Origin: a bacterium
GTDB taxonomy: Bacteria; Cyanobacteriota; Vampirovibrionia; Gastranaerophilales; UBA9971
Assembly: GCA_037147175.1 (NCBI GenBank)
Contig: JBAWVS010000001.1
Span: 82,627 to 146,626, forward strand
Reading direction: 5' to 3'
DNA: 64,000 nt
The position numbers were made by a program, and so were the translations under genes. This document shows positions 13,129 through 52,593 of the stretch, one piece after another. Numbering within the stretch: the first letter of the stretch is position 1; the number at the start of each line of letters is the position of its first letter. The notes under the pieces are model-generated. The model worked only from the letters and a program-made list of their open reading frames with translations, made no database searches and was not told where the DNA came from.

Positions 13129-13271
13129 TAATTTTTTGCTAATTACAAACACCCGACAAAGTTTACTAATTAAAATTCTGGCATATTAATAAATATAAAA
13201 AAATTCCAAACCGTATATATGTTTATAAAAACAAATAAACTTTTTGTTACGTAAGCGTTTGAGGCTGTAAA

Positions 13272-13373
13272 ATTTGTTTTAACATTTCTTCATAATGTCC
13301 AATCAGGCAATATTTTTATACATTGTCGGGTAATTTACCAATAAGTTTTTTTTAGTGTCCAATTAAATAATTC
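13272..13373 (+). repeat. 102-bp direct repeat, copy 1
   Basis: Equal in length to 14404-14505 and differing at about 8 positions without gaps (about 92% identity). It sits 26 bp upstream of the acyltransferase start. It contains TGTCCAAT twice and the near-palindrome GGTAATTTACC. It may be a shared 5' leader/promoter or the scar of a cassette insertion or duplication. Confidence 0.85.
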
Positions 13374-13399
13374 AACAAAAAATAAAAGGAAGTTAATGA

Positions 13400-14398
13400 A
13401 TGAAGAGCAGGTTGCATTGGGTTGATTTTGCAAAAGGGCTGGGAATAATTCTGGTAGTCTACGGGCATGTTCTCAGAGGATTGAATTCTGCTAATCTTTG
13501 CAACGGTCTTTTTTTTAAAGTATCGGATAATTTGATTTATGGTTTTCATATGCCTTTATTTTTCTTTTTATCAGGCATTTTTACAGAAAAGTGGGTATTA
13601 AAAGATTTTAAAAACGCTTTTTCGGATAAACTAAAATTTTTAGTTTATCCGTATTTTGTTTGGTCGCTCTTGCAGGGGAGCTTCAATGTTTTATTATCAA
13701 AATATACAAACAATGCAATTACTTGGGGGACTTTGTTAAACATATTTTATCAGCCCATTGGGCAATTCTGGTTTTTATATGCATTATTTTTTGTCTTTTT
13801 TATCTATTACTTATTGAGAAAAAAGTTTAACTTAATCCAAATTTTTATGTTTTCACTGGGTTTTTATTTTATTTCTCCGTTTACAAGAGTGCAAATATTA
13901 GGAAATATTTTTAAAAATTTCCTCTTTTTTGTATTTGGCATTTTGTACGTAACAAAATTGGATTATAAAATTGTTATTTCCAAATTATCTGAAATAAGAC
14001 CGCTAATTATAACCTCTTGCCTGTTCATTTTAGCTAATATATTTTATCTGTCGGTTTATTCTGTATTAGGTCCTATAAAACTAAAATTAGTGCAGATTCC
14101 AATTGCATTGATAGGGATTTTGTTTGTTTTATCAATATCTTCGCATCTTGAAAAACTCAAAAGCTTTAATTTCTTTAAATATTTAGGGATGTTGTCAGTT
14201 GTAATATATGTTGCTCATATATTAATAACTGCTTCAACAAGAATATTTCTTATGAAGTTTCTGCATATTAGTAATTTATATATTCATATTGCAGTAGGAA
14301 CTACAGTTGGTGTGATTTTGCCTGTTGTTTTTTATGCTCTCATAAAAAAATTTCAAATGGTCCATGTTTTATTCGGTAAAAATATAGAGAAAGCATAA
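13400..14398 (+). CDS. Acyltransferase family 3 (OafA/WecH-like) membrane protein
   Basis: A 332-residue polytopic protein with about ten hydrophobic segments. It opens with RLHWVDFAKGLGIILVVYGHVLRG, the acyltransferase-3 signature in which the histidine of GH is catalytic, followed by FHMPLFFFLSG. Such proteins O-acetylate (or otherwise acylate) sugars of surface polysaccharides at the inner membrane. The start ATG follows an AAAGGAAG ribosome site by about seven bases. The gene is bracketed by the two copies of a 102-bp direct repeat, so it could be a discrete inserted or duplicated unit. Likely decorates the polymer made by the surrounding cluster. Confidence 0.85.
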   Translation: MKSRLHWVDFAKGLGIILVVYGHVLRGLNSANLCNGLFFKVSDNLIYGFHMPLFFFLSGIFTEKWVLKDFKNAFSDKLKFLVYPYFVWSLLQGSFNVLLSKYTNNAITWGTLLNIFYQPIGQFWFLYALFFVFFIYYLLRKKFNLIQIFMFSLGFYFISPFTRVQILGNIFKNFLFFVFGILYVTKLDYKIVISKLSEIRPLIITSCLFILANIFYLSVYSVLGPIKLKLVQIPIALIGILFVLSISSHLEKLKSFNFFKYLGMLSVVIYVAHILITASTRIFLMKFLHISNLYIHIAVGTTVGVILPVVFYALIKKFQMVHVLFGKNIEKA

Positions 14399-14403
14399 AA
14401 AAG

Positions 14404-14505
14404 ATTTGCTTTAACATTTCTTCAGAATGTCCAATCAGGCAATATTTTTATGCATTGCAGGGTAATTTACCAATGAGGTTCTTTTAGTGTCCAATTAAAT
14501 AATTC
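14404..14505 (+). repeat. 102-bp direct repeat, copy 2
   Basis: Second copy of the 13272-13373 repeat, starting five bases after the acyltransferase stop and ending about 30 bp before the next start. Each copy therefore precedes one plus-strand gene at a similar distance. Confidence 0.85.
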
Positions 14506-14536
14506 TGTAACGATAAAAAAATAAAGAAGGGTATCA

Positions 14537-16159
14537 ATGAAAATTGCTGTTTTGATAGATTCTTTTAAATTGCCTAGTTGGAAATCTAAAATTATAGAGG
14601 ACTTATATAACAATGAATCTACAGAAGTATATTTGATTGAGTTAAAATACAGTCCCATACAAAAACTCTTTAATTTTTTAAAAAAGTTTAACTGCATTTT
14701 ATTTTATTTTTATGAAAGCCTGGATTATCTGGTTTTTAGCAAGAGCAATAAATTTAAGGAAATAAAAGACCAAAAAGATGCATTACAAAAAATCAATATA
14801 AAAAACCCGAAATATAAAACAATTAGAATTGAATTTAGGAAAAACAAACTGCTTTGCATTCATAACTGTCCTCATAAAGAAGAGTTGGATTTTGATTTGA
14901 TTGTAGATTTGACTAAAACATTAACAAAAGATTTTTATGAAAATTTTATTGCGCTTTCAAAAAAAGGAATTTGTTTTTTTGAATTAGGTGAACAATCTGA
15001 CTCATTTGTTCATTTTTTCAAAGAAATTTATTTTAACATTCCGACAATAAATGTTTGTTTAAGCATTACTGATGGAAAATATAAAAAAACTTTGTATGAA
15101 TCTTGTTCTGAAACATTCAATATTTCTTTTTACTTAAACAGTAATAAAAACCTGTGGAAAATATCGAATTTTATAAAGAGAAAAATTGATAAAATCAATG
15201 ATTTTTCTCTTTCTGATTTTAATTCCGATGACAAATGTTTTCGATATGATATCAAAGTTCCGTCAAACGGTTTAATGCTTAAATTTATCTCTAAAATTTT
15301 AAAAAACATATTAAAAACTAAATTATTAAATTCAAAATTCAAAAGCCAGTGGTTTTTAGCCTATGAAAAGACAAATCCGGAAATAGATTTAATAAATGAA
15401 GATAAATCAAATTTTAAAATTATAGCTCCACCTGATGATAAATTTTTTGCTGACCCTTTTATAGTTAATGAGAACAATAAAAGTTATGTGTTTTTTGAAG
15501 AATATTGTTATTTAAAACAAAAGGGAATGATTTCCTATTTGGAAATAGACGAAAATGAAAAGATTTCATCTCCTCAGGTTATTCTTGAAAAGGATTATCA
15601 TATTTCTTATCCTTTTGTTTATAAACATGAAAACAAGTATTATATGATACCCGAAACACTTGCTAACAAGACAATAGAGTTGTATGAAGCAACAGATTTT
15701 CCTGAAAAATGGGAATTAAAGAAAGTTTTGTTTGACAATATCAATGCCGTAGACAGCTCTCTGGTATTTTATAATCAAAAATTCTGGTTATTTACTAATG
15801 TATCAACAAGAGGAGCTGCTTTAGCAGATGAGCTTTTTATTTTTTATTCAGAGTCTCTTTTGGGAGAATGGCAAGCGCATTCTAAAAATCCGGTTGTCTC
15901 AAATTCAAAAACGGCAAGATCTGCCGGAAAATTTTTCTTTAACAAAGGCAGACTTATAAGACCCAGTCAGGAAAGTTCCTTGCGTTACGGCTATGCTTTA
16001 AATTTTAACAATGTGGATATTCTTACAGAAAATGATTATCAGGAAACCTTGATAAAAAACATAAAGCCCGAATTTATTGATGATAACCTCGCGATACATA
16101 CTTTTAACAGTAACAATATTTATAACTTTATAGACGGAATGAGACTTATAAAAAAATAA
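14537..16159 (+). CDS. Probable glycan-modifying transferase with GH43-like beta-propeller C-terminal domain
   Basis: A 540-residue protein. The N-terminal half (about 1-260) is not recognised. The C-terminal half (about 280-540) resembles the domain found at the N-terminus of plant glucosamine inositolphosphorylceramide transferases and in many bacterial polysaccharide clusters: FFADPFIV, YVFFEEY, SYPFVYKH, YYMIPE, and VDSSLVFYNQKFWLFTN repeats look like propeller blades. There is no signal peptide. Position between an acyltransferase and a Wzx flippase suggests a role in assembling or editing the repeat unit in the cytoplasm. The reaction is unknown. A second copy of the 102-bp repeat precedes it. 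Confidence 0.6.
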   Translation: MKIAVLIDSFKLPSWKSKIIEDLYNNESTEVYLIELKYSPIQKLFNFLKKFNCILFYFYESLDYLVFSKSNKFKEIKDQKDALQKINIKNPKYKTIRIEFRKNKLLCIHNCPHKEELDFDLIVDLTKTLTKDFYENFIALSKKGICFFELGEQSDSFVHFFKEIYFNIPTINVCLSITDGKYKKTLYESCSETFNISFYLNSNKNLWKISNFIKRKIDKINDFSLSDFNSDDKCFRYDIKVPSNGLMLKFISKILKNILKTKLLNSKFKSQWFLAYEKTNPEIDLINEDKSNFKIIAPPDDKFFADPFIVNENNKSYVFFEEYCYLKQKGMISYLEIDENEKISSPQVILEKDYHISYPFVYKHENKYYMIPETLANKTIELYEATDFPEKWELKKVLFDNINAVDSSLVFYNQKFWLFTNVSTRGAALADELFIFYSESLLGEWQAHSKNPVVSNSKTARSAGKFFFNKGRLIRPSQESSLRYGYALNFNNVDILTENDYQETLIKNIKPEFIDDNLAIHTFNSNNIYNFIDGMRLIKK

Positions 16160-23969: not shown

Positions 23970-23980
23970 AAGACAGTGAA

Positions 23981-24115
23981 ACTCGAATTGTTAAATTGCC
24001 AAAATCGTCATTGTTCGCAAAGCGAAGCAATCAATAAAAAACAAAACGGATTGCCTTGTCTAGCCTAAAGCCTCTCCTTGCAATGACGCGTAAATTAAAT
24101 TAGCAATTCGAGTTA
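23981..24115. repeat. Palindromic intergenic repeat, copy B
   Basis: Complete copy between the convergent GT4 and gmhA genes. Ends ACTCGAATTG and CAATTCGAGT are perfect inverted repeats, with the CGTCATTG...CAATGACG core inside. Confidence 0.85.
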
Positions 24116-24129
24116 CTGAATAATCAGAA

Positions 24130-24723
24130 CTAAACGTATTCTTTAGTCAAAACTTTTTTCTCAACAGAAATATGATTATTTAGTACGGTCATTATCAGAT
24201 GAGTGATCATCATGTGTAAATCTTCTGTTATTTGCATATTATTAACATTAACGTTAACGCTGTATCTGGCAATTTTCTTTAAATTGCCCCCGTCAAAACC
24301 TGTTATTCCTACGGTTAGATTGTTTTTCTGATTAGCATATTCTATTGCTTTTAAGACGTTTTTTGAATTTCCGCTTCCTGAAATACCGATGACCACGTCA
24401 TCTTCTTTTAAAAAGTTTTTTAACTGTTCTACAAATAAAGAGTTATAATCAATATCATTTGCATAAGCCAGCATAGTAGGTATGTTGTCGGTTAAAGATA
24501 AAACTCTGAACTTTTTAAATAAATTGGAATTAATTCCTTTATTAAAATCACAGGCAAAATGCGATGCAGTAGAAGCACTTCCTCCGTTGCCAAAAATATA
24601 AATATTGCTGCCTTTTTCATAAGCGTCTATTAATATTTTGATAAAATTATTAATTTCATTTAAATCTAACATGTCTATAGCTTGTTTTGCAGAAGCCAGA
24701 TATTTGCTTATTTCATGCTGCAT
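24130..24723 (-). CDS. gmhA: Sedoheptulose-7-phosphate isomerase (SIS domain)
   Basis: A 197-residue SIS-domain protein of GmhA length with the phosphosugar-binding segment IYIFGNGGSASTASHFACD (about 43-61), GISGSGNSKNVLKA (about 113-126) and the C-terminal metal/active-site helix ITEDLHMMITHLIM. It converts sedoheptulose 7-phosphate to D-glycero-D-manno-heptose 7-phosphate, the first step of heptose nucleotide synthesis. HddA and HddC follow the same pathway upstream. An intrinsic terminator and its own leader (24750-24829) separate it from hddA, so it is transcribed apart from them. An AAGGAAGG ribosome site precedes the ATG and lies inside a short leader reading frame. Confidence 0.9.
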   Translation of the reverse strand: MQHEISKYLASAKQAIDMLDLNEINNFIKILIDAYEKGSNIYIFGNGGSASTASHFACDFNKGINSNLFKKFRVLSLTDNIPTMLAYANDIDYNSLFVEQLKNFLKEDDVVIGISGSGNSKNVLKAIEYANQKNNLTVGITGFDGGNLKKIARYSVNVNVNNMQITEDLHMMITHLIMTVLNNHISVEKKVLTKEYV

Positions 24724-24749
24724 TTTTTAATCCTTCCTTAAGTCGTAAT

Positions 24750-24829
24750 AAAAATAATTTTGAAAAATATATAGTACGGAAGATATACTATACTTCATTG
24801 AAAATAATTAAACCCTCCTTGTGTATATA
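24750..24829 (-). promoter_or_regulatory. Shared polysaccharide leader element, copy X (upstream of gmhA)
   Basis: Reading on the minus strand from 24829, the first 21 bases are identical to the start of 36468-36545, and similarity continues through a GTATAGTAT-type segment and a T-rich end. Both copies lie about 105-115 bases before a start codon and in the same orientation relative to it. The block includes AAGGAGGG (24820-24813) and, 14 bases on, an ATG (24798) opening a 23-codon frame whose stop is one codon before the gmhA ATG, in the same frame. Could be promoter, operator, leader peptide or an antitermination site. Confidence 0.75.
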
Positions 24830-24907
24830 ACTTTCTGTTCAATTTTATTTTAAATCTTAATTATCCTCTATTATTAAATATGCAAACTAATAAATATTGC
24901 TATAAAA

Positions 24908-25037
24908 TTCGAATTGCTAAATCGCCAAAATCGTCATTGCGAGCATAGCGAAGCAATCTATAATAAACAAAATAGATTGCCAAATCGAGTCAAAAGCCTC
25001 TTCTCGCAATGACGCGTAAATTTAATTAATTCGAGTT
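24908..25037. repeat. Palindromic intergenic repeat, copy C
   Basis: Complete copy with TTCGAATTGCTAAATCGCC at one end, TCGTCATTGCGAGCATAGCG inside, the complement TCGCAATGACGCG and a TTCGAG end. It lies between the hddA terminator and the gmhA leader. The 24724-25138 gap contains only this, the leader and the terminator. Confidence 0.87.
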
Positions 25038-25045
25038 ATAACAGA

Positions 25046-25086
25046 AAAAATCTCCTTATTTGTTGTTTATGCATAAGGAGATTTTT
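25046..25086 (-). terminator. Intrinsic terminator of the wza-to-hddA operon
   Basis: A 14-bp perfect stem (25046-25059 with 25073-25086) around a 13-base loop, followed on the minus strand by a six-T run. It lies 53 bases past the hddA stop, so transcription of the long minus-strand polysaccharide operon should end here. Confidence 0.85.
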
Positions 25087-25138: not shown

Positions 25139-26113
25139 TTAGTCAGCGTAAATTACAGTAGTCCCAATGCTTTCAAATTCAAAATCAAGTTCGTTTAAGT
25201 CTTTAAGAGAGTCTCTGAGTTGCTTATGCTTATTTTCTTTGGCATAGAATAATAAAAAACCATTTTTGCCTGCGCCGAGTAATTTTCCGCCGGAGGCTCC
25301 GTTTTTCATCGCCAAATTATAATAATAATCTATTTTTTCATTGGAAATTTGGGAAGAAAGTTCTTTTTTGTACAGCCAACCTTTATGGAGAATTTCTCCA
25401 AAATCGTCAATATTTCCCCTTAAAAGCTCATCTCTTAATTCATAAGCCAGCAGCACCATTTTTTGAAGATTTTTAGTTTTTTTGCTGTCAGCTATATTTT
25501 CCTTTTGTTCTTTTAATATAGCGCTTGCTGAGCGCTCTGAGCCGGTATAAAACATAAGTAGATTATTTTGAAGTTTAGCGGATTTGTCTTTATCCAGTGC
25601 GATTTTTTCTGTAGTGACAACATCATCCTGATTAAAAGATATAAAATTTAATCCGCCGATTGCACAGGCGTATTGATCCTGCTTTCCAATTGGTTCTTTG
25701 AGTTTGTCTATTTCAATTTCACAGGCGTAGCTGGCAATTTCAGTTTTTTTCATATATTTTTGCGTATAAATATTGCACAAATTAATCAACCCTGCGGTAA
25801 AAGCGGAAGAAGAGCCAAGACCTGTTCCTGATGGAATATCTGCGCTTGAATTAAAATCTATTCCCATTATTTTATAATCATCAAGAACACGTTTTATAAT
25901 TCTGTGTTGAATTTTATTTATATTATCCACACATTCCAGATTTGAATATTTTAAAAAGTACCCGTCTTTCTGGAAGTAAGGGTGCATTGAAAGATAAATA
26001 TATTTATTAATGCTTGTGCTCAGGACTGCACCGCCGTAATTTTGATAATAATCTTTTAAATCACTGCCGCCTCCGGCAAAGCTAATTCTGAAAGGAGTTC
26101 TCGTAATAATCAT
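25139..26113 (-). CDS. hddA: D-glycero-alpha-D-manno-heptose 7-phosphate kinase
   Basis: A 324-residue GHMP kinase of HddA type. TPFRISFAGGGSDLKDYY opens the protein (substrate-binding), SSADIPSGTGLGSSSAFTAGL is the GHMP phosphate loop (about 92-112), the EPIGKQDQYACAIGG segment follows, and GASGGKLLGAGKNGFLLF is motif 3. It phosphorylates D-glycero-D-manno-heptose 7-phosphate at C1 in the GDP-heptose branch. HddC lies 10 bases upstream on the same strand. It is the last gene before a strong terminator. Confidence 0.9.
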   Translation of the reverse strand: MIITRTPFRISFAGGGSDLKDYYQNYGGAVLSTSINKYIYLSMHPYFQKDGYFLKYSNLECVDNINKIQHRIIKRVLDDYKIMGIDFNSSADIPSGTGLGSSSAFTAGLINLCNIYTQKYMKKTEIASYACEIEIDKLKEPIGKQDQYACAIGGLNFISFNQDDVVTTEKIALDKDKSAKLQNNLLMFYTGSERSASAILKEQKENIADSKKTKNLQKMVLLAYELRDELLRGNIDDFGEILHKGWLYKKELSSQISNEKIDYYYNLAMKNGASGGKLLGAGKNGFLLFYAKENKHKQLRDSLKDLNELDFEFESIGTTVIYAD

Positions 26114-35930: not shown

Positions 35931-36467
35931 TTCCTTTTAACTTAAATAATGAGTAATAATTAGCACTATATTTTTCTGAAAAATTTTAATAAATTAATAT
36001 TTCTTTAAATAATATTGAAAATAAATTACCTGCTTTACCATATAAAAGATTATTTGTTTTTCCTCTAAAAGGACAATTTTAAAAGTTATTTAATTTTTTT
36101 TATACTAAAACGAGTTTATATTTTCGGAAACGATGAGTTTTCGAAAATAATGCTTTTACTATCGAATGCCGCTTTTCTGCAGGTTATTAAAATCCCGAAT
36201 TTATTTTTAAATCGGCATAAATCAATTTCAAAAGAAAACGAGAAATAAAAAAATAAAGGGGTGAGTGAGTTGCTGCTGGCTATGAAAAGTGGATTGCGAG
36301 CTGAGAGCGAAGAAGGGGCTTTATCTTTTCGAAACGCAGTTGCTTTCGAGTAATCAGGCAACGAGCCAAAAATTGCTCTCATGGACTGCTTTGAAGCAGA
36401 GGCCGTGGAAAATAAGGATTTTACGAATATTTGTTTAAAAAGGTATAAATCAAATTAAACATAAGGC
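35931..36467. other. Non-coding gap with two diverged repeat units and a GC-richer island
   Basis: No convincing gene is seen. Around 36190-36225 and 36418-36453 two similar stretches occur (both end in TATAAATCAA or CATAAATCAA), 228 bases apart. The part from about 36240 to 36420 is clearly richer in G+C than its surroundings and includes a hairpin CTGCTTTGAAGCAG. One plus frame from 36119 to 36457 is open except for two TAA codons, so a decayed gene or a structured RNA are both possible. A minus-strand frame of 88 codons lacks a ribosome site. Confidence 0.4.
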
Positions 36468-36545
36468 TATATACACAAGGAGGGTTTATTTCTTTGTGAT
36501 GACGTATAGTATGTCATCCGTATAGTATATTTTTCGAAAAATTTT
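36468..36545 (+). promoter_or_regulatory. Shared polysaccharide leader element, copy Y (upstream of the GT4-sugar transferase unit)
   Basis: Plus-strand counterpart of the gmhA leader. The first 21 bases match exactly and are followed by GTATAGTAT twice with a 16-base period. AAGGAGGG (36477-36484) is followed 14 bases later by an ATG (36499) that opens an 8-codon frame, MTYSMSSV; the gmhA copy reads MKYSISSV at the same place. The real gene starts at 36582 with its own AGGAG site. Confidence 0.75.
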
Positions 36546-36581
36546 TTTTATTATTATTTATGAATTTATGAGGAGTTAAAG

Positions 36582-37730
36582 ATGTTGTTAACAACTCCTG
36601 ACAAGGAATTTACAACTATAAATTTATCCAAAAAAAATGATAGCTCAAAAAAGAAAATTGCTATTGTCTCGGATCAAATATCAGGCGGTATAGGAGGAGC
36701 TGAGAGCATAACCTTTTCTATGGCAAGAATGTATCCGGATGCTCATTTGTACGCAACTGTCGTTGATAAAAATATTCTTCCGGATGATATTTTACAAAAA
36801 GGAATAAAATCAACTTTTATACAAAATCTTCCGTTAAGTAAAAAGCTGTATAAAGCTTATCTTCCTTTAATGCCTACAGCTATTGAATATCTTGATTTAC
36901 AAGAATATGACATTATTTTTTCGTCACATCATTGCGTTGCAAAAGGGGTTATACCAAGACCCGATGCGGTTCATATCTGTTATTGCCATTCTCCGGCAAG
37001 GTATATATGGGATTTGTTCTGGACATATCAACAACTTAACGGTGTAAATAAAATTACAAAATTCTTAAGCTCTTTTCTCTGCAACTATCTTAGAGTTTGG
37101 GATGTGACAAGCTCTGCCAGGGTTGATTATTTTCTGGCAAATTCGGGTTATACAGCAGCGAGAATAAAAAAATTCTATAACAGGGATTGTGAAATTTTGT
37201 ATCCGCCTGTAGACACCAATAAGTTTTTCCATGAAGGATACGATGATTATTATTTAATGATAAGCAGGCTTGTCGGGTATAAAAGGTTTGATCTTGCAAT
37301 AGAAGCATTTAATGAAAACGGTAAAAAACTTGTAATTATAGGCGACGGTGCAGAATTTGAAAAATACAAAAAAATTGCAAAACCCAACGTTAAACTGCTT
37401 GGAAAAGTTTCGGATGAAATTCTTGCCAAGTATATGAATAGATGCAAAGGATTTATATTTCCCGGCAAAGAAGATTTCGGTATTGTAATGGCGGAAGCGC
37501 AAGCTGCAGGCAAGCCGGTCATTGCTTTTAAAGGCGGCGGCGCTCTCGATATTGTAATAGATGGTCAGACAGGAATTCTTTTTGAAGAGCAAACTGTTGA
37601 ATCTCTTGGTAATGCCATAAAAATTTGTGAAAAAAACGAATGGGATAACAGGTTTATACAAGAAAGTGCAAAAAGATTTGATAAAGAAAAGTTTAATAAA
37701 AGACTCAAACAAATAATAGAAAACACGTAA
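36582..37730 (+). CDS. Glycosyltransferase family 4 (WbaZ/mannosyltransferase-like)
   Basis: A 382-residue GT-B enzyme. An N-terminal extension of about 20 residues precedes KKIAIVSDQISGGIGGAE. CYCHSPARYIWDLFW is characteristic of the WbaZ-like subgroup, YYLMISRLVGYKRFDLAIEAF opens the donor domain and E-x7-E is in EDFGIVMAEA. This subgroup includes mannosyltransferases, but the donor here is unproven. A good AGGAG site lies six bases before the ATG. It starts a plus-strand pair with the initiating sugar transferase, under the leader element shared with gmhA. Confidence 0.83.
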   Translation: MLLTTPDKEFTTINLSKKNDSSKKKIAIVSDQISGGIGGAESITFSMARMYPDAHLYATVVDKNILPDDILQKGIKSTFIQNLPLSKKLYKAYLPLMPTAIEYLDLQEYDIIFSSHHCVAKGVIPRPDAVHICYCHSPARYIWDLFWTYQQLNGVNKITKFLSSFLCNYLRVWDVTSSARVDYFLANSGYTAARIKKFYNRDCEILYPPVDTNKFFHEGYDDYYLMISRLVGYKRFDLAIEAFNENGKKLVIIGDGAEFEKYKKIAKPNVKLLGKVSDEILAKYMNRCKGFIFPGKEDFGIVMAEAQAAGKPVIAFKGGGALDIVIDGQTGILFEEQTVESLGNAIKICEKNEWDNRFIQESAKRFDKEKFNKRLKQIIENT

Positions 37731-37755: not shown

Positions 37756-38502
37756 ATGTTAGCGGAAAAAACCATAGATAAAAATATTATTTCACAAGAA
37801 ATTGTTGATTTTATAAAAAATTCTAATAATAGATTTGATAATATAATAAAAAATCCTTACGAAATTTCAATTAATCTTTATAATTCAAATCAAAAAGTTT
37901 TTCAGTATTTTCTGAAAAAAATAATTGAAAAGACGATAACCATAGTAGGTCTGGCTTTGATTTCACCTGTTCTTTTTATTACTGCAGCAGCAATAAAACT
38001 GGAATCAGAAGGACCTGTGTTTTTTAAACAAAAAAGAATAGGCCAGCATGGTAAGGAATTTTATATTTGCAAATTTAGAAGCATGTACAAAGATTCCGAA
38101 AAAAAGGCTGAAGAACTGCAAAAATACAATCAAACAAACGCATTAATGTTTAAAATGTTTGATGATCCGAGAATAACAAAAGTCGGCAAATTTATTAGAA
38201 AATACAGTATTGATGAACTTCCTCAGTTATTCAATGTTCTTAAAGGTGAAATGAGTCTTGTGGGCTTCAGGCCTCCTTTACCATCCGAAGTAAGCAAATA
38301 TAAGGATTTATATTATGTGCGATTTGCAATGATGCCGGGATTAACAGGTCCATGGCAGGTAAGCGGCAGGTCAAAAATTAAAGAATTTGAAGATGTCGTA
38401 AATCTTGAATATGAATATGCAAAAGATTGGTCATTGTTTAAAGATATGCACATATTAATGAAAACCATTCCTGTTGTATTATTTGGAAAAGATACCGCTT
38501 AA
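37756..38502 (+). CDS. Initiating sugar-phosphate transferase (WcaJ/WbaP catalytic domain type)
   Basis: A 248-residue protein with one membrane-associated helix (about 60-80, ITIVGLALISPVLFITAAAIKLE) and the full catalytic signature: GPVFFKQKRIGQ, FYICKFRSMYKDSE, DPRITKVGKFIRKYSIDELPQLFNVLKGEMSLVG in successive blocks, and PGLTGPWQVSGR. It transfers a sugar-1-phosphate to undecaprenyl phosphate, the first committed step of repeat-unit synthesis. It lacks the N-terminal multi-pass domain of full WcaJ/WbaP, resembling the short PglC-like form. It follows the GT4 gene by 25 bases. Confidence 0.9.
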   Translation: MLAEKTIDKNIISQEIVDFIKNSNNRFDNIIKNPYEISINLYNSNQKVFQYFLKKIIEKTITIVGLALISPVLFITAAAIKLESEGPVFFKQKRIGQHGKEFYICKFRSMYKDSEKKAEELQKYNQTNALMFKMFDDPRITKVGKFIRKYSIDELPQLFNVLKGEMSLVGFRPPLPSEVSKYKDLYYVRFAMMPGLTGPWQVSGRSKIKEFEDVVNLEYEYAKDWSLFKDMHILMKTIPVVLFGKDTA

Positions 38503-44833: not shown

Positions 44834-45012
44834 AACTCGAGTCGCCAATTAGCTAAAATTATTGCAAATATTGATTTTTGAGAATGTCATCCTGAGCAAA
44901 GCGAAGGATCTGTCCAATTTGTGATTTTAGCTAAAAATGCTTACTGGACAGATTCTTCGGGCTTTAGCCCTCAGAATGACAATTTGTAAAAATAAATTAA
45001 TTGGCGACCGGG
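44834..45012. repeat. Palindromic intergenic repeat, copy E (CCTGAG variant)
   Basis: A variant with TGTCATCCTGAGCAAAGCG and, further on, the complementary CTCAGAATGACA, bounded by ACTCGAGTCGCCAATTAGC and TTAATTGGCGACCGG. The core differs from the GTCATTGCGAG copies though the layout and end positions are similar. It fills most of the 44736-45051 gap; nothing else is seen there. Confidence 0.75.
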
Positions 45013-45788: not shown

Positions 45789-47942
45789 ATGCATAAGCAA
45801 CTTTTTGACCAATTAGGTACCATTCTAAAACAACAAAAGAGACCTGAACAGGATGTTGAAAAAATTCATTCAGCATTCGATTTTGCGGCGGGTTTGCATG
45901 AAGGGCAATATAGAGCAAGTGAAGAGCCTTATATTCTTCATCCTCTTGAAGTTGCCTGTATTCTGGCTGATTTGCAGGCGGATACTGATACTATTTGTGC
46001 AGCTTTGCTGCATGATACTCTGGAAGATACAGAAACCAGCCCTGAAGCTATAAAATCACGTTTTGGTCAAGATGTTTTAACACTGGTAAGCGGTGTTACT
46101 AAACTGAGCAAATTCAGCTTCAGTTCTAAAGAAGAACGTCAGGCGGAAAATTTCAGAAAAATGTTCCTTGCAATGGCAGAGGATATAAGGATAATTTTCC
46201 TTAAATTGGCAGACAGGCTTCATAATATGAGAACTTTGAACTACATGAAGCTTGAAAAACAAAAAGAAATTGCAAAAGAAACCCTCGAAATTTTTGTTCC
46301 GTTAGCCAACAGACTCGGAATGGGCTTGGTAAAAACAGAGCTTGAAGATCTTTCTTTAAGATACAGCAATCCTGAAAAATATTTTGAAATTGCGCAGTTG
46401 GTGGCTCAGGCAAAGGCCGAGAGAGATCATACCATCCAAACAATTATAGAAAAAATCGACAATAATTTAAAAGCAATGCATATAAAAGCGGTAATAACCG
46501 GTAGAGCAAAAAGTTATTACAGTATTTTCTCAAAAATGCACCGTAAACAAATGTCATATCAGGATTTGTATGATATAACCGCTGTTAGAGTGATAGTTGA
46601 TGATGAAAAAGAATGTTACGAAGTTCTCGGGCTTATTCACTCTGCGTTCAAGCCAATTCCCGGGCGTTTTAAAGATTACATAGCCATGCCTAAAAACAAC
46701 CTTTACAGGTCATTGCATACTTCTGTAATTGGACCGAGGGGCAAGCCTCTTGAGGTTCAAATAAGAACACATGAAATGCATGAAATAGCAGAACACGGTC
46801 TAGCTGCCCATTGGAAATATAAAGAGTCCGGTGTGCCTGTAAAAGCTAATTCAAAAGATGCGGAGAAATTCAGCTGGCTGAGAAAACTTGTTGAAATTCA
46901 AAATGATACAAAAGATGCAAAAGAATACGTTGACAGTGTAAAACTCGATCTTTTTTCCGATGAAGTTTTTGTTTTCACACCGCAGGGTGATGTAATAGAT
47001 TTGCCTGCCAACGCTGTTCCGTTGGATTTTGCGTACAGAATTCACACGGAAATCGGTCACAGATGTACAGGAGCCATGCTGAACGGTCGTATTGTAACGC
47101 TTGATACAAAGCTAAAAAACGGTGATATTGTCGAAATTTTGACAGGAAAGCAAGCAAAACCCCGTCTGGATTGGATTAATATAGTCGTTACAAATCAGGC
47201 AAAAAGCAGAATTCGCGGTTGGTTTAAGAAAAACCACAGAGATGAGCATATTTTACAGGGAAGAAGCAATCTTGAACATGAAATGACCAAAGCTGCCGTT
47301 GAAGAGCTTATAAGAGACGGAAAACTTCTTGAAATCGCAAAGCAAATGAATTATCAGGCAGAAGATGATCTTTTTGCCGCTATTGGTTATGGAGAAATTA
47401 CTCTGCAAAAAATTCTCAATAAGCTTAAGGTTGACCAGATAGCACCTAAAATTAAAATCACAAAGACCTCCACGTCTAAATCATCAAAATCCATTGAGGG
47501 GCTTGAAGGAATGCTTCATCATTTCTCAAAATGCTGTTCACCTGTTCCGGGAGAACCAATAGTTGGTGTTGTAACAAGAAGCCGCGGCGTAAGTGTACAT
47601 AGAGAAGACTGCAAGTCGCTTCAAATTGTAGACGGAGAAAGAGTTATACCTATAGGTTGGAATCAGGCTGACTCTAATAAAACTTATACGACTAAGATTT
47701 ATATAGAAACAATAGACAGAATAGGCATATTTAAAGATGTTCTCGGTAAAATTGCGGACAGCAGAACCAATATTGTACAGGCAACTATTAAAAGAAGAAG
47801 TAAGGATTTTTCTACAATAGAAATCGGACTTGAAATAGCAAATATAGAACATCTTAATAAGCTTATCACCAGCATAAATACAGTAAGTGATGTTGTCAGC
47901 GTAAAAAGACAACAATCAGGCGTTTTGAATAAAAATAATTAA
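45789..47942 (+). CDS. spoT: Bifunctional (p)ppGpp synthetase/hydrolase, RelA/SpoT family
   Basis: A 717-residue long RSH enzyme. The HD hydrolase domain (about 40-190) keeps HPLEVACIL and LLHDTLEDT; the synthetase (about 230-350) keeps RFKDYIAMPKNNLYRSLHTSV. TGS (about 390-450, VFVFTPQGDVIDLP), helical, zinc-finger-like (HFSKCCSPVPG...HREDC, about 570-610) and ACT (about 640-710) domains follow. Both catalytic domains look intact, so it should make and degrade the stringent-response alarmone. The start ATG lacks a clear ribosome site. A palindromic repeat begins two bases after the stop. Confidence 0.93.
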   Translation: MHKQLFDQLGTILKQQKRPEQDVEKIHSAFDFAAGLHEGQYRASEEPYILHPLEVACILADLQADTDTICAALLHDTLEDTETSPEAIKSRFGQDVLTLVSGVTKLSKFSFSSKEERQAENFRKMFLAMAEDIRIIFLKLADRLHNMRTLNYMKLEKQKEIAKETLEIFVPLANRLGMGLVKTELEDLSLRYSNPEKYFEIAQLVAQAKAERDHTIQTIIEKIDNNLKAMHIKAVITGRAKSYYSIFSKMHRKQMSYQDLYDITAVRVIVDDEKECYEVLGLIHSAFKPIPGRFKDYIAMPKNNLYRSLHTSVIGPRGKPLEVQIRTHEMHEIAEHGLAAHWKYKESGVPVKANSKDAEKFSWLRKLVEIQNDTKDAKEYVDSVKLDLFSDEVFVFTPQGDVIDLPANAVPLDFAYRIHTEIGHRCTGAMLNGRIVTLDTKLKNGDIVEILTGKQAKPRLDWINIVVTNQAKSRIRGWFKKNHRDEHILQGRSNLEHEMTKAAVEELIRDGKLLEIAKQMNYQAEDDLFAAIGYGEITLQKILNKLKVDQIAPKIKITKTSTSKSSKSIEGLEGMLHHFSKCCSPVPGEPIVGVVTRSRGVSVHREDCKSLQIVDGERVIPIGWNQADSNKTYTTKIYIETIDRIGIFKDVLGKIADSRTNIVQATIKRRSKDFSTIEIGLEIANIEHLNKLITSINTVSDVVSVKRQQSGVLNKNN

Positions 47943-47943
47943 A

Positions 47944-48055
47944 TTTACGCGTCATTGCTGTATGAGGAGAGGCTTTAGACTCGACGCGGCAATCCATTTT
48001 ATTTTTATAGATTGCTTTGCTATGCTCGCAGTGACGATCTAGCAATTCGGGTAAA
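47944..48055. repeat. Palindromic intergenic repeat, copy F
   Basis: Reverse-oriented copy: ACGCGTCATTGCTG, then a spacer, then GCTATGCTCGCAGTGACG and AGCAATTCGGGT. It starts right after the RelA/SpoT stop and lies before the DUF2934-like gene. Confidence 0.82.
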
Positions 48056-48135
48056 TTAATTATGTACTTAAAGAGAATAAAACCTCTCTGTAATACTGAT
48101 AAAATGGAATTTATCAAAATGAGGGGGAATATAAC

Positions 48136-49037: not shown

Positions 49038-49154
49038 TTGAATTTCTCCTTAAATTTTTTTATTATACTGAAACGAATTTGCATATTATAAAGCAGATAA
49101 ATACTGATGTTTCTACCCTATCGAGTAGAAACATTTTTCCAAATAACTAATAAC

Positions 49155-49278
49155 CAGAATTGCTAAACCGTCATTGCGAGCATAGCGAAGCAATCCATAA
49201 AAAATAAAATGGATTGCCGCATCGAGTCTAAAGCCTCTCCTCGCAATGACGCGTAAATTTAATCAGCAACACGAGTTA
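49155..49278. repeat. Palindromic intergenic repeat, copy G
   Basis: Complete copy: AGAATTGCTAAACCGTCATT, GCGAGCATAGCGAAGCAATC, then CTCGCAATGACGCG and a CAACACGAGTTA end. It separates the start region of rubrerythrin from the end of the HDOD fusion gene. Confidence 0.87.
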
Positions 49279-51331: not shown

Positions 51332-51340
51332 ATTTAAATA

Positions 51341-51452
51341 ACTCGAATTGCTAAACCGTTAAAATCGTTATTGCGAGCATAGCGAAGCAATCTATAAAAA
51401 ATAAAATGGATTGCCACGTCGGGCCTAAAGCCTCTCCTCTCAATGACGCGTT
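51341..51452. repeat. Palindromic intergenic repeat, copy H
   Basis: Begins ACTCGAATTGCTAAACCG, contains ATTGCGAGCATAGCGAAGC and the complement CAATGACGCG. It lies between the hypothetical membrane protein and the small CxxC genes; the rest of the 51332-51665 gap holds the hairpin terminator below and AT-rich sequence. Confidence 0.87.
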
Positions 51453-51524
51453 AGTTTATTTAACAGTTAATTTGTAGAAAACCCTTGTAGAAAATATTAA
51501 GAAAAATTAAGCAAACTTTAAATC

Positions 51525-51558: not shown

Positions 51559-51665
51559 CTGCATGAAAAATCAAAAGAATTTTTTTCAGGAAGGTGTTAA
51601 TTTTTTTCCTTCACATGATTTATACAAGTATCGAACAAATAATTTAAAAAATAAGGAGAAAGGAA

Positions 51666-51929
51666 ATGCAAGCAATCGGGTTTATTCCCCAGAGAAACAT
51701 CAGACCGGCTTTCGGTTGTGAAAAATGTGAGCAAATTAAAAAAACATTAACAGACGCCGGTGTCGGACCGCGCAGAGCTAAAGGGTTTGTAGAAAGTAAT
51801 ACCGCCTTGATAGGAAGTGAAAAAAGACAAGGATTGACTCATGAACAAAAGGCTGAAAAACTTTCAAACACTGTGGGCGGAAACCTGGATTACTATGTTA
51901 AGGAACTTAAAAAAACTACAGTAAATTAA
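51666..51929 (+). CDS. Small CxxC protein, tandem family member 1
   Basis: An 87-residue protein, not recognised. It starts with the family motif IGF.PQRN and I.PAFGC with C18 and C21 as CxxC, then a helical region: KKTLTDAGVGPRRAKGFVE and AEKLSNTVGG...YYVKELKK. A GGAGAAAGGA ribosome site is nine bases or less upstream. The two genes after it encode paralogues sharing the first 18 residues most strongly and the general helix pattern less so. A leader-like, conserved N-terminus with a variable remainder recalls secreted or modified peptides, but no processing gene is adjacent. Confidence 0.7.
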   Translation: MQAIGFIPQRNIRPAFGCEKCEQIKKTLTDAGVGPRRAKGFVESNTALIGSEKRQGLTHEQKAEKLSNTVGGNLDYYVKELKKTTVN

Positions 51930-51976
51930 TAATTTGTTGAATAAGTAATTTAACAACTAAAAAAAGGAGAAACAAA

Positions 51977-52237
51977 ATGCTAAACATTGGATTTAACCCC
52001 CAAAGAAACATCAAACCAGCTTTTGGCTGCGAAGATTGTGAAAGTTCAAAAAAAATATTGACAGCTGCCGGCGTACCTGAAAGCAGAGCTGATGCTTATG
52101 TAAAAGATAGTTTTTCACCATCTGAAAAACCTGAAGATCATCTAAAAAATGCTGCGGCACTAAAGGAAGCTTTAAGCAAAAAAGGACAATTAGCACCTAT
52201 TGTTAATATGCTTAAGAACGTAAGGGCAAATCGATAA
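51977..52237 (+). CDS. Small CxxC protein, tandem family member 2
   Basis: An 86-residue paralogue of the preceding protein, beginning MLNIGFNPQRNIKPAFGC with C18 and C21. The middle (KKILTAAGVPESRADAYVKD) parallels member 1 (KKTLTDAGVGPRRAKGFVES), so the whole chains are homologous, not only the motif. AAAAAGGAG precedes the ATG by about seven bases. It lies 47 bases downstream of member 1, likely in the same transcript. Function unknown. Confidence 0.7.
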   Translation: MLNIGFNPQRNIKPAFGCEDCESSKKILTAAGVPESRADAYVKDSFSPSEKPEDHLKNAAALKEALSKKGQLAPIVNMLKNVRANR

Positions 52238-52317
52238 ATTAAGAAACCAAACACCTCAATGTAAACAGACAAAATTTTTTAAATGTCGAAATATTACTTA
52301 AAGAAAGGATAAACAAA

Positions 52318-52593
52318 ATGACAAATATCGGATTTAATCTCAACAGAAATATCAAACCGGCTTTTGGCTGTGACAACAAAGATTGTAAACCTTGCCAAGA
52401 AGCGGAACAAAAATTTGTAATAAGCGGGATACCAAGAGACACTGCTTCTAAGTTTGTAAAGATAGCTACAAATGACTCTGATCCAGCTATACATTATCAA
52501 AAAGCTGAAAAGCTTAATAATCATTTAGCTGATGGTGGAAACTTTGTGGATTATCTGAGGAAAGAAAAGCCATCTGTTGATATCTTAGCCTAG
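52318..52593 (+). CDS. Small CxxC protein, tandem family member 3
   Basis: A 91-residue paralogue beginning MTNIGFNLNRNIKPAFGC, with three cysteines at 18, 23 and 26 (GCDNKDCKPC). FVISGIPRDTASKFVKIA corresponds to the AGVPESRADAYVK segment of member 2, and AEKLNNHLADGGNFVDYLRKE to the AEKLSNTVGGNLDYYVKE segment of member 1. AAAGAAAGGA precedes the ATG. It ends 80 bases or so before a diverged palindromic repeat. Function unknown. Confidence 0.7.
   Translation: MTNIGFNLNRNIKPAFGCDNKDCKPCQEAEQKFVISGIPRDTASKFVKIATNDSDPAIHYQKAEKLNNHLADGGNFVDYLRKEKPSVDILA

Follow-up and report, generated by a model that had tools for sequence, protein, structure and literature searches.

Introduction

Control of the RfaH/LoaP type requires a NusG paralogue in addition to the housekeeping NusG, RfaH and its ops element act on long operons, and the ops element has the sequence GGCGGTAGnnTn. 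In the RfaH/ops system, this conserved 12-nt element is located in the untranslated leader (PMC6391919). CsrA, for which SELEX yielded the consensus RUACARGGAUGU, controls the pgaA and psl leaders (PMC7652899). Here we describe a leader element that occurs twice in a 64,000-nucleotide stretch of DNA (the window) from a bacterium of the order Gastranaerophilales, a group of non-photosynthetic Cyanobacteria, once before a gmhA-like gene and once before a GT4 glycosyltransferase and sugar transferase unit. An earlier note on this DNA had proposed that the two copies form a common control element (promoter, leader peptide or antitermination site), comparable with JUMPstart/ops, which ties heptose supply to glycan initiation. 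To our knowledge, no surface-polysaccharide regulator has been described in this uncultured lineage.

Results

Copy 1 of the leader element is located at 24746..24850 on the minus strand and faces the gmhA-like gene, and copy 2 is located at 36447..36553 on the plus strand and faces the GT4 and sugar transferase genes. A search against the whole genome (G000; 2.66 Mb, 99% complete) aligned the two with 82% identity over 107 columns (E 9.9e-24), and they differ by indels as well as substitutions. The shared element of the earlier note is thus real, with TATATACACAAGGAGGGTTTA unchanged in both copies, and its observations on geometry held as well: both copies are oriented alike toward their respective downstream genes, the first core base lies 106 bases from the ATG on the gmhA side and 114 on the GT4 side, and in each copy AAGGAGGG is followed by an ATG 14 bases on. 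Upstream of the element, alignment showed no relatedness between the flanks of copy 1 and copy 2. The 17-mer core TATATACACAAGGAGGG lies at 24813..24829 (minus) and 36468..36484 (plus), and in copy 2 the preceding GGC together with the core gives a 16-mer shared with a second genome, that of Candidatus Caenarcanum (G007), a Melainabacteria genus according to the NCBI taxonomy. Both G000 copies of the core hold a perfect Shine-Dalgarno/CsrA-like ACAAGGA.

The exact 17-mer occurs twice in the whole genome, both times in the window; with up to three mismatches there were 12 extra genomic matches vs 6 for the reversed pattern, and in the window 2 matches vs 0.09 expected. At the sensitivity used, the 2.66-Mb genome yielded no third copy of the leader: the next DNA match had an E-value of 6e-4, and a model of the leader sequence scored the second copy at 78.5 bits and the next G000 match at less than 15. 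Across 383 genomes from the order, a gapped pattern derived from the core matched three places (reversed control, 0), namely the two G000 leaders and the leader of the GT4 orthologue in G007, and outside G000 the exact 16-mer GGCTATATACACAAGG was found only upstream of that orthologue. Several apparent relatives in other genomes were set aside as chance matches: those in L057/L058, which lie inside an rng-like gene and not in leaders, in L112 (inside an acyl-CoA dehydrogenase-like gene), in L128-L132 (mostly within genes), in L106 (within a frame, as judged by eye) and in contigs L108 and L109, whose source organisms are unrelated. Readings of the core as a DnaA box or a sigma-54 site were dropped on inspection by eye.

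The gmhA-like gene (24130..24723, minus) encodes a SIS-domain isomerase (Pfam SIS_2, 1.5e-17) that scored 111 bits against the TIGR00441 gmhA model, under the NCBI cut-off of 209, so the label denotes family similarity below that cut-off. An hddA-like kinase gene, with its end at 25139, precedes it, and a convergent gene follows. An intrinsic terminator lies between the hddA-like gene and the gmhA unit (25046..25086, minus), with a 14-bp perfect inverted repeat followed by a T run, and the piece enclosing it folds at -18 kcal/mol (z -6.4). Since this strong terminator parts gmhA from hddA, gmhA appears to be a single-gene transcription unit of its own. From hddA to gmhA the order is terminator, MITE-like palindromic repeat (24905..25038, plus) and leader element; the repeat is an 83% identical direct copy of another downstream of gmhA (23979..24115, plus; at least 40 genome matches), so that the gmhA unit with its leader is bracketed by the two. 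The repeat is about 135 bp long, with ends ACTCGAATT/AATTCGAGT and TCATTGCGAG internally; the family has at least 40 matches in the G000 genome and few in relatives, and further copies in the window lie at 47936-48063, 49143-49263 and 51340-51463, among others. Elsewhere in the window, 51631-52376 holds three partly similar intergenic stretches (75-138 bp, 73-83% identity), and an imperfect palindrome some 130 bp long spans 44870-44997.

On the other side, the GT4 glycosyltransferase gene (36582..37730, plus; Pfam Glycos_transf_1, 2e-28) is followed by a polyprenyl sugar-phosphate transferase gene (Bac_transf; 37756..38502, plus; PF02397, 1.4e-63). The two diverge from a long operon for export, chain length, polymerase and glycosyltransferase functions (from 35930 downwards), which carries no copy of the element. 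A second conserved block lies in the divergent intergenic region, on the side of the export operon (36005..36030, minus); it is a 26-mer identical in G007, against a null maximum of 15. The G007 form of this 26-mer shares TCGGGTAATTTA with the leader at 13269-13404, in the same orientation toward the gene. The stretch 36281-36341, upstream of copy 2, is seemingly richer in G+C and is 79% identical to the interior of a tsaB-like gene (L061 1501-1561), whose counterpart reads SGLRAEAEEVALPLRNAV; it looks like a repeat able to insert in coding sequence.

G007 keeps the divergent GT4/export synteny, and identity between the two orthologous GT4 genes is 80% at the amino-acid level, 80% at the nucleotide level and 47% at fourfold-degenerate sites. 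The 16-mer is exact in the G007 intergenic region, about 100 bases before the GT4 start; in 300 simulations, the longest random match between the G000 and G007 intergenic regions was 15 bases. With fourfold sites only 47% identical and the core exact, the core looks to be under selection at GT4 between these two genomes. Inspection showed no core before the GT4 orthologues of G001, G002, G004, G005, G006, G008, G013 and G017; the G007 gmhA orthologue (60% identity) is sited elsewhere, with no leader copy, and a GT4 protein search of the genome contigs gave no match. Because the two G000 leaders resemble each other more than the orthologous GT4 leaders do, the gmhA copy most likely derived from the GT4 leader after the G000 and G007 lineages split. 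That heptose supply and glycan initiation are linked, as proposed, is plausible in this one genome at most, since the G007 gmhA and most GT4 orthologues of the family have no copy.

All 496 pairs among the 32 upstream regions in the window were scored for similarity, and the gmhA/GT4 pair ranked second (121; third, 37). First was a different duplicated leader, with one copy at 13269-13404 before an acyltransferase gene (13400) and another at 14401-14541 before a GINT1_N-domain gene (14537); they are 85% identical over 143 columns, with similarity up to the start codons, and unrelated in sequence to the gmhA/GT4 leader. This second leader also holds the palindrome GGTAATTTACC and two TGTCCAAT repeats. 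Two independent duplications in one glycan cluster indicate that leader copying is recurrent and occurred at least twice, which lends modest support to the shared-control reading.

Discussion

We propose that a segment of about 107 bp with the promoter/operator of the GT4-sugar transferase operon was duplicated before the gmhA-like gene, placing both under the same transcriptional control. We give this proposal an even chance of being right, and among the three mechanisms offered by the earlier note a promoter/operator is the likeliest, the other two not being supported. The gmhA and GT4 units are probably switched together. What stands of the earlier claim is a shared cis element heading two glycan units, as seen in the duplication, the search that found no third copy, the anatomy that points to separate transcription of the two units and the core in G007, whereas most of the mechanisms attached to it do not.

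The terminator before gmhA and the divergent position of GT4 imply that each unit must have a promoter close to the element, and since the flanks above it are unrelated, any shared promoter must sit inside it. A candidate -10 hexamer, TATAGT, lies at 24787..24792 (minus) in copy 1, 24 bases past the AAGG of the core, and in the same place in copy 2 (36505..36510, plus); the distance from the core to TATAGT, TATAGT and TATATA is 24, 24 and 25 bases in copy 1, copy 2 and G007, respectively. A good -35 hexamer is absent between the core and the candidate -10 in all three leaders. The core may thus be the binding site of an activator overlying the -35 region, which would substitute for the -35 contact, with TATAGT/TATATA 24-25 bases downstream serving as the -10, a layout as expected for such control; transcription would then start past the short ATG frame and leave it untranslated. 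On the other hand, TATA boxes are common by chance at 33% G+C, which weakens the candidate -10, a consensus promoter scan around copy 1 gave 7 sites vs 6.3 in shuffles, with no excess, and the motif is poorly defined because there are just three instances. The presence of ACAAGGA in the core is also odd for a site that acts as DNA only.

That motif is the starting point of the main rival to the promoter/operator reading, a protein site in the 5' untranslated leader. Transcription would start upstream of the element, which would be read as RNA, most plausibly by CsrA binding ACAAGGA in both leaders, and both messages would be repressed or stabilised. CsrA is encoded in G000 (C41, 89.9 bits) beside FliW and also in G007, ACAAGGA fits the conserved part of the CsrA consensus, and ACARGGA, with a frequency of 0.16 per kb, is nevertheless present in both leaders and in just one other of the 32 upstream regions. 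However, the two leaders are duplicates, so the motif in them counts as a single observation; G007 has ACAAGGGGA, in which an intact ACARGGA is missing, and the gene's own ribosome site is about 100 bases further down. The consensus of the three sequences pairs GGAGGGU with AUCUUCC and includes two double changes, a result that 51 of 500 shuffles equalled, so that this hairpin is not significant. The leader RNA folded no better than shuffles (z -0.2 and -1.2), which favours the promoter/operator reading, and the GGA of ACAAGGA, if transcribed, is predicted to be paired in a weak structure. In addition, CsrA does not account for the strictly conserved TATATAC upstream. We therefore consider RNA-level control by CsrA possible and rather unlikely. 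Rfam gave no gathering match to the leader and, with E relaxed to 1, nothing credible, and a known riboswitch or cis-regulatory RNA was rejected on this basis.

It is likewise improbable, to a similar degree, that the segment was copied during rearrangement as a neutral by-product, with a role at GT4 and no regulatory role at gmhA. The direct repeats that bracket the gmhA unit, belonging to a MITE-like family of at least 40 copies, and the gmhA genes of relatives without a copy are compatible with such an origin, and it is not improbable that drift would leave the core intact at 18% divergence (0.82^13, about 0.08). By our estimate, a 21-base identical run at 82% identity has a chance of about 1 in 6, and selection on the gmhA copy itself is only weakly supported by these comparisons. 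What speaks for function is that copy 1 stands correctly oriented and at nearly equal distance (106 vs 114) before a gene that needs its own promoter.

A bolder reading is that a lineage-specific regulator, which controls surface-glycan assembly in non-photosynthetic Cyanobacteria (Melainabacteria), recognises the 16-mer in DNA or in nascent RNA, and that the site spread through the cluster as whole leaders were copied; we offer this as speculation with a small chance of being correct.

A translated leader peptide that steers each gene by attenuation or translational coupling is very improbable. The earlier note had described matching short reading frames, and its gmhA-side frame (24727..24798, minus) does run for 23 codons, stopping one codon before gmhA (TAA AAA ATG), with an ATG 14 bases past AAGGAGGG in both copies. 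The first eight codons match, but the GT4-side frame, as read from the sequence (36499..36525, plus; MTYSMSSV*), ends there, 56 bases short of the GT4 ATG, and the G007 frame, of 19 codons, is unrelated in sequence (MNECYIFPKQ...). Two of the three changes in the shared eight codons are nonsynonymous and one is synonymous, and a spacing of 14 bases is long. The frames thus differ in sequence, length and frame between the copies and again in G007, the 23-codon frame is probably not a conserved leader peptide, and an attenuator was rejected, with no conserved short peptide or regulatory codons among three unrelated frames.

A recruitment site for RfaH/LoaP-type antitermination, the JUMPstart/ops-like analogy of the earlier note, is scarcely credible even though the element is placed in a glycan-operon leader and its 16-mer is exact between genera. 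The paralogue check that the note had called for gave a single NusG-family match (PF02357) in each of six genomes, G000 included, with no RfaH/LoaP paralogue found, and direct reading of both copies revealed nothing resembling ops. The targets are short, a lone gene in the gmhA unit and a GT4 unit that begins with two genes, whereas the long export operon opposite lacks the element.

A duplicated leader is an ordinary kind of thing in an unusual setting. If the promoter/operator proposal is true, the locus would be a clear case of regulon building by leader copying inside a glycan cluster, the second duplicated leader nearby would suggest a habit rather than an accident, and the short, specific core could serve as a bait sequence for finding the regulator.

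Compared with JUMPstart/ops and RfaH, the locus likewise has a short conserved sequence before polysaccharide operons, but no NusG paralogue or ops-like sequence was found, and the three known occurrences of the element are spread over two genomes and include a unit of only one gene. The CsrA-regulated leaders of Escherichia coli pgaA and Pseudomonas psl are matched by ACAAGGA in both G000 leaders, by the encoded CsrA and FliW and by glycan targets; in contrast, there is one upstream site here, not several near the ribosome site, and the G007 site is degenerate. Although the second copy is confined to one genome, unlike in duplicated promoters and operators that build regulons, the locus resembles these in having the same segment, oriented and spaced alike, ahead of two units with linked functions, and a core conserved across genera.
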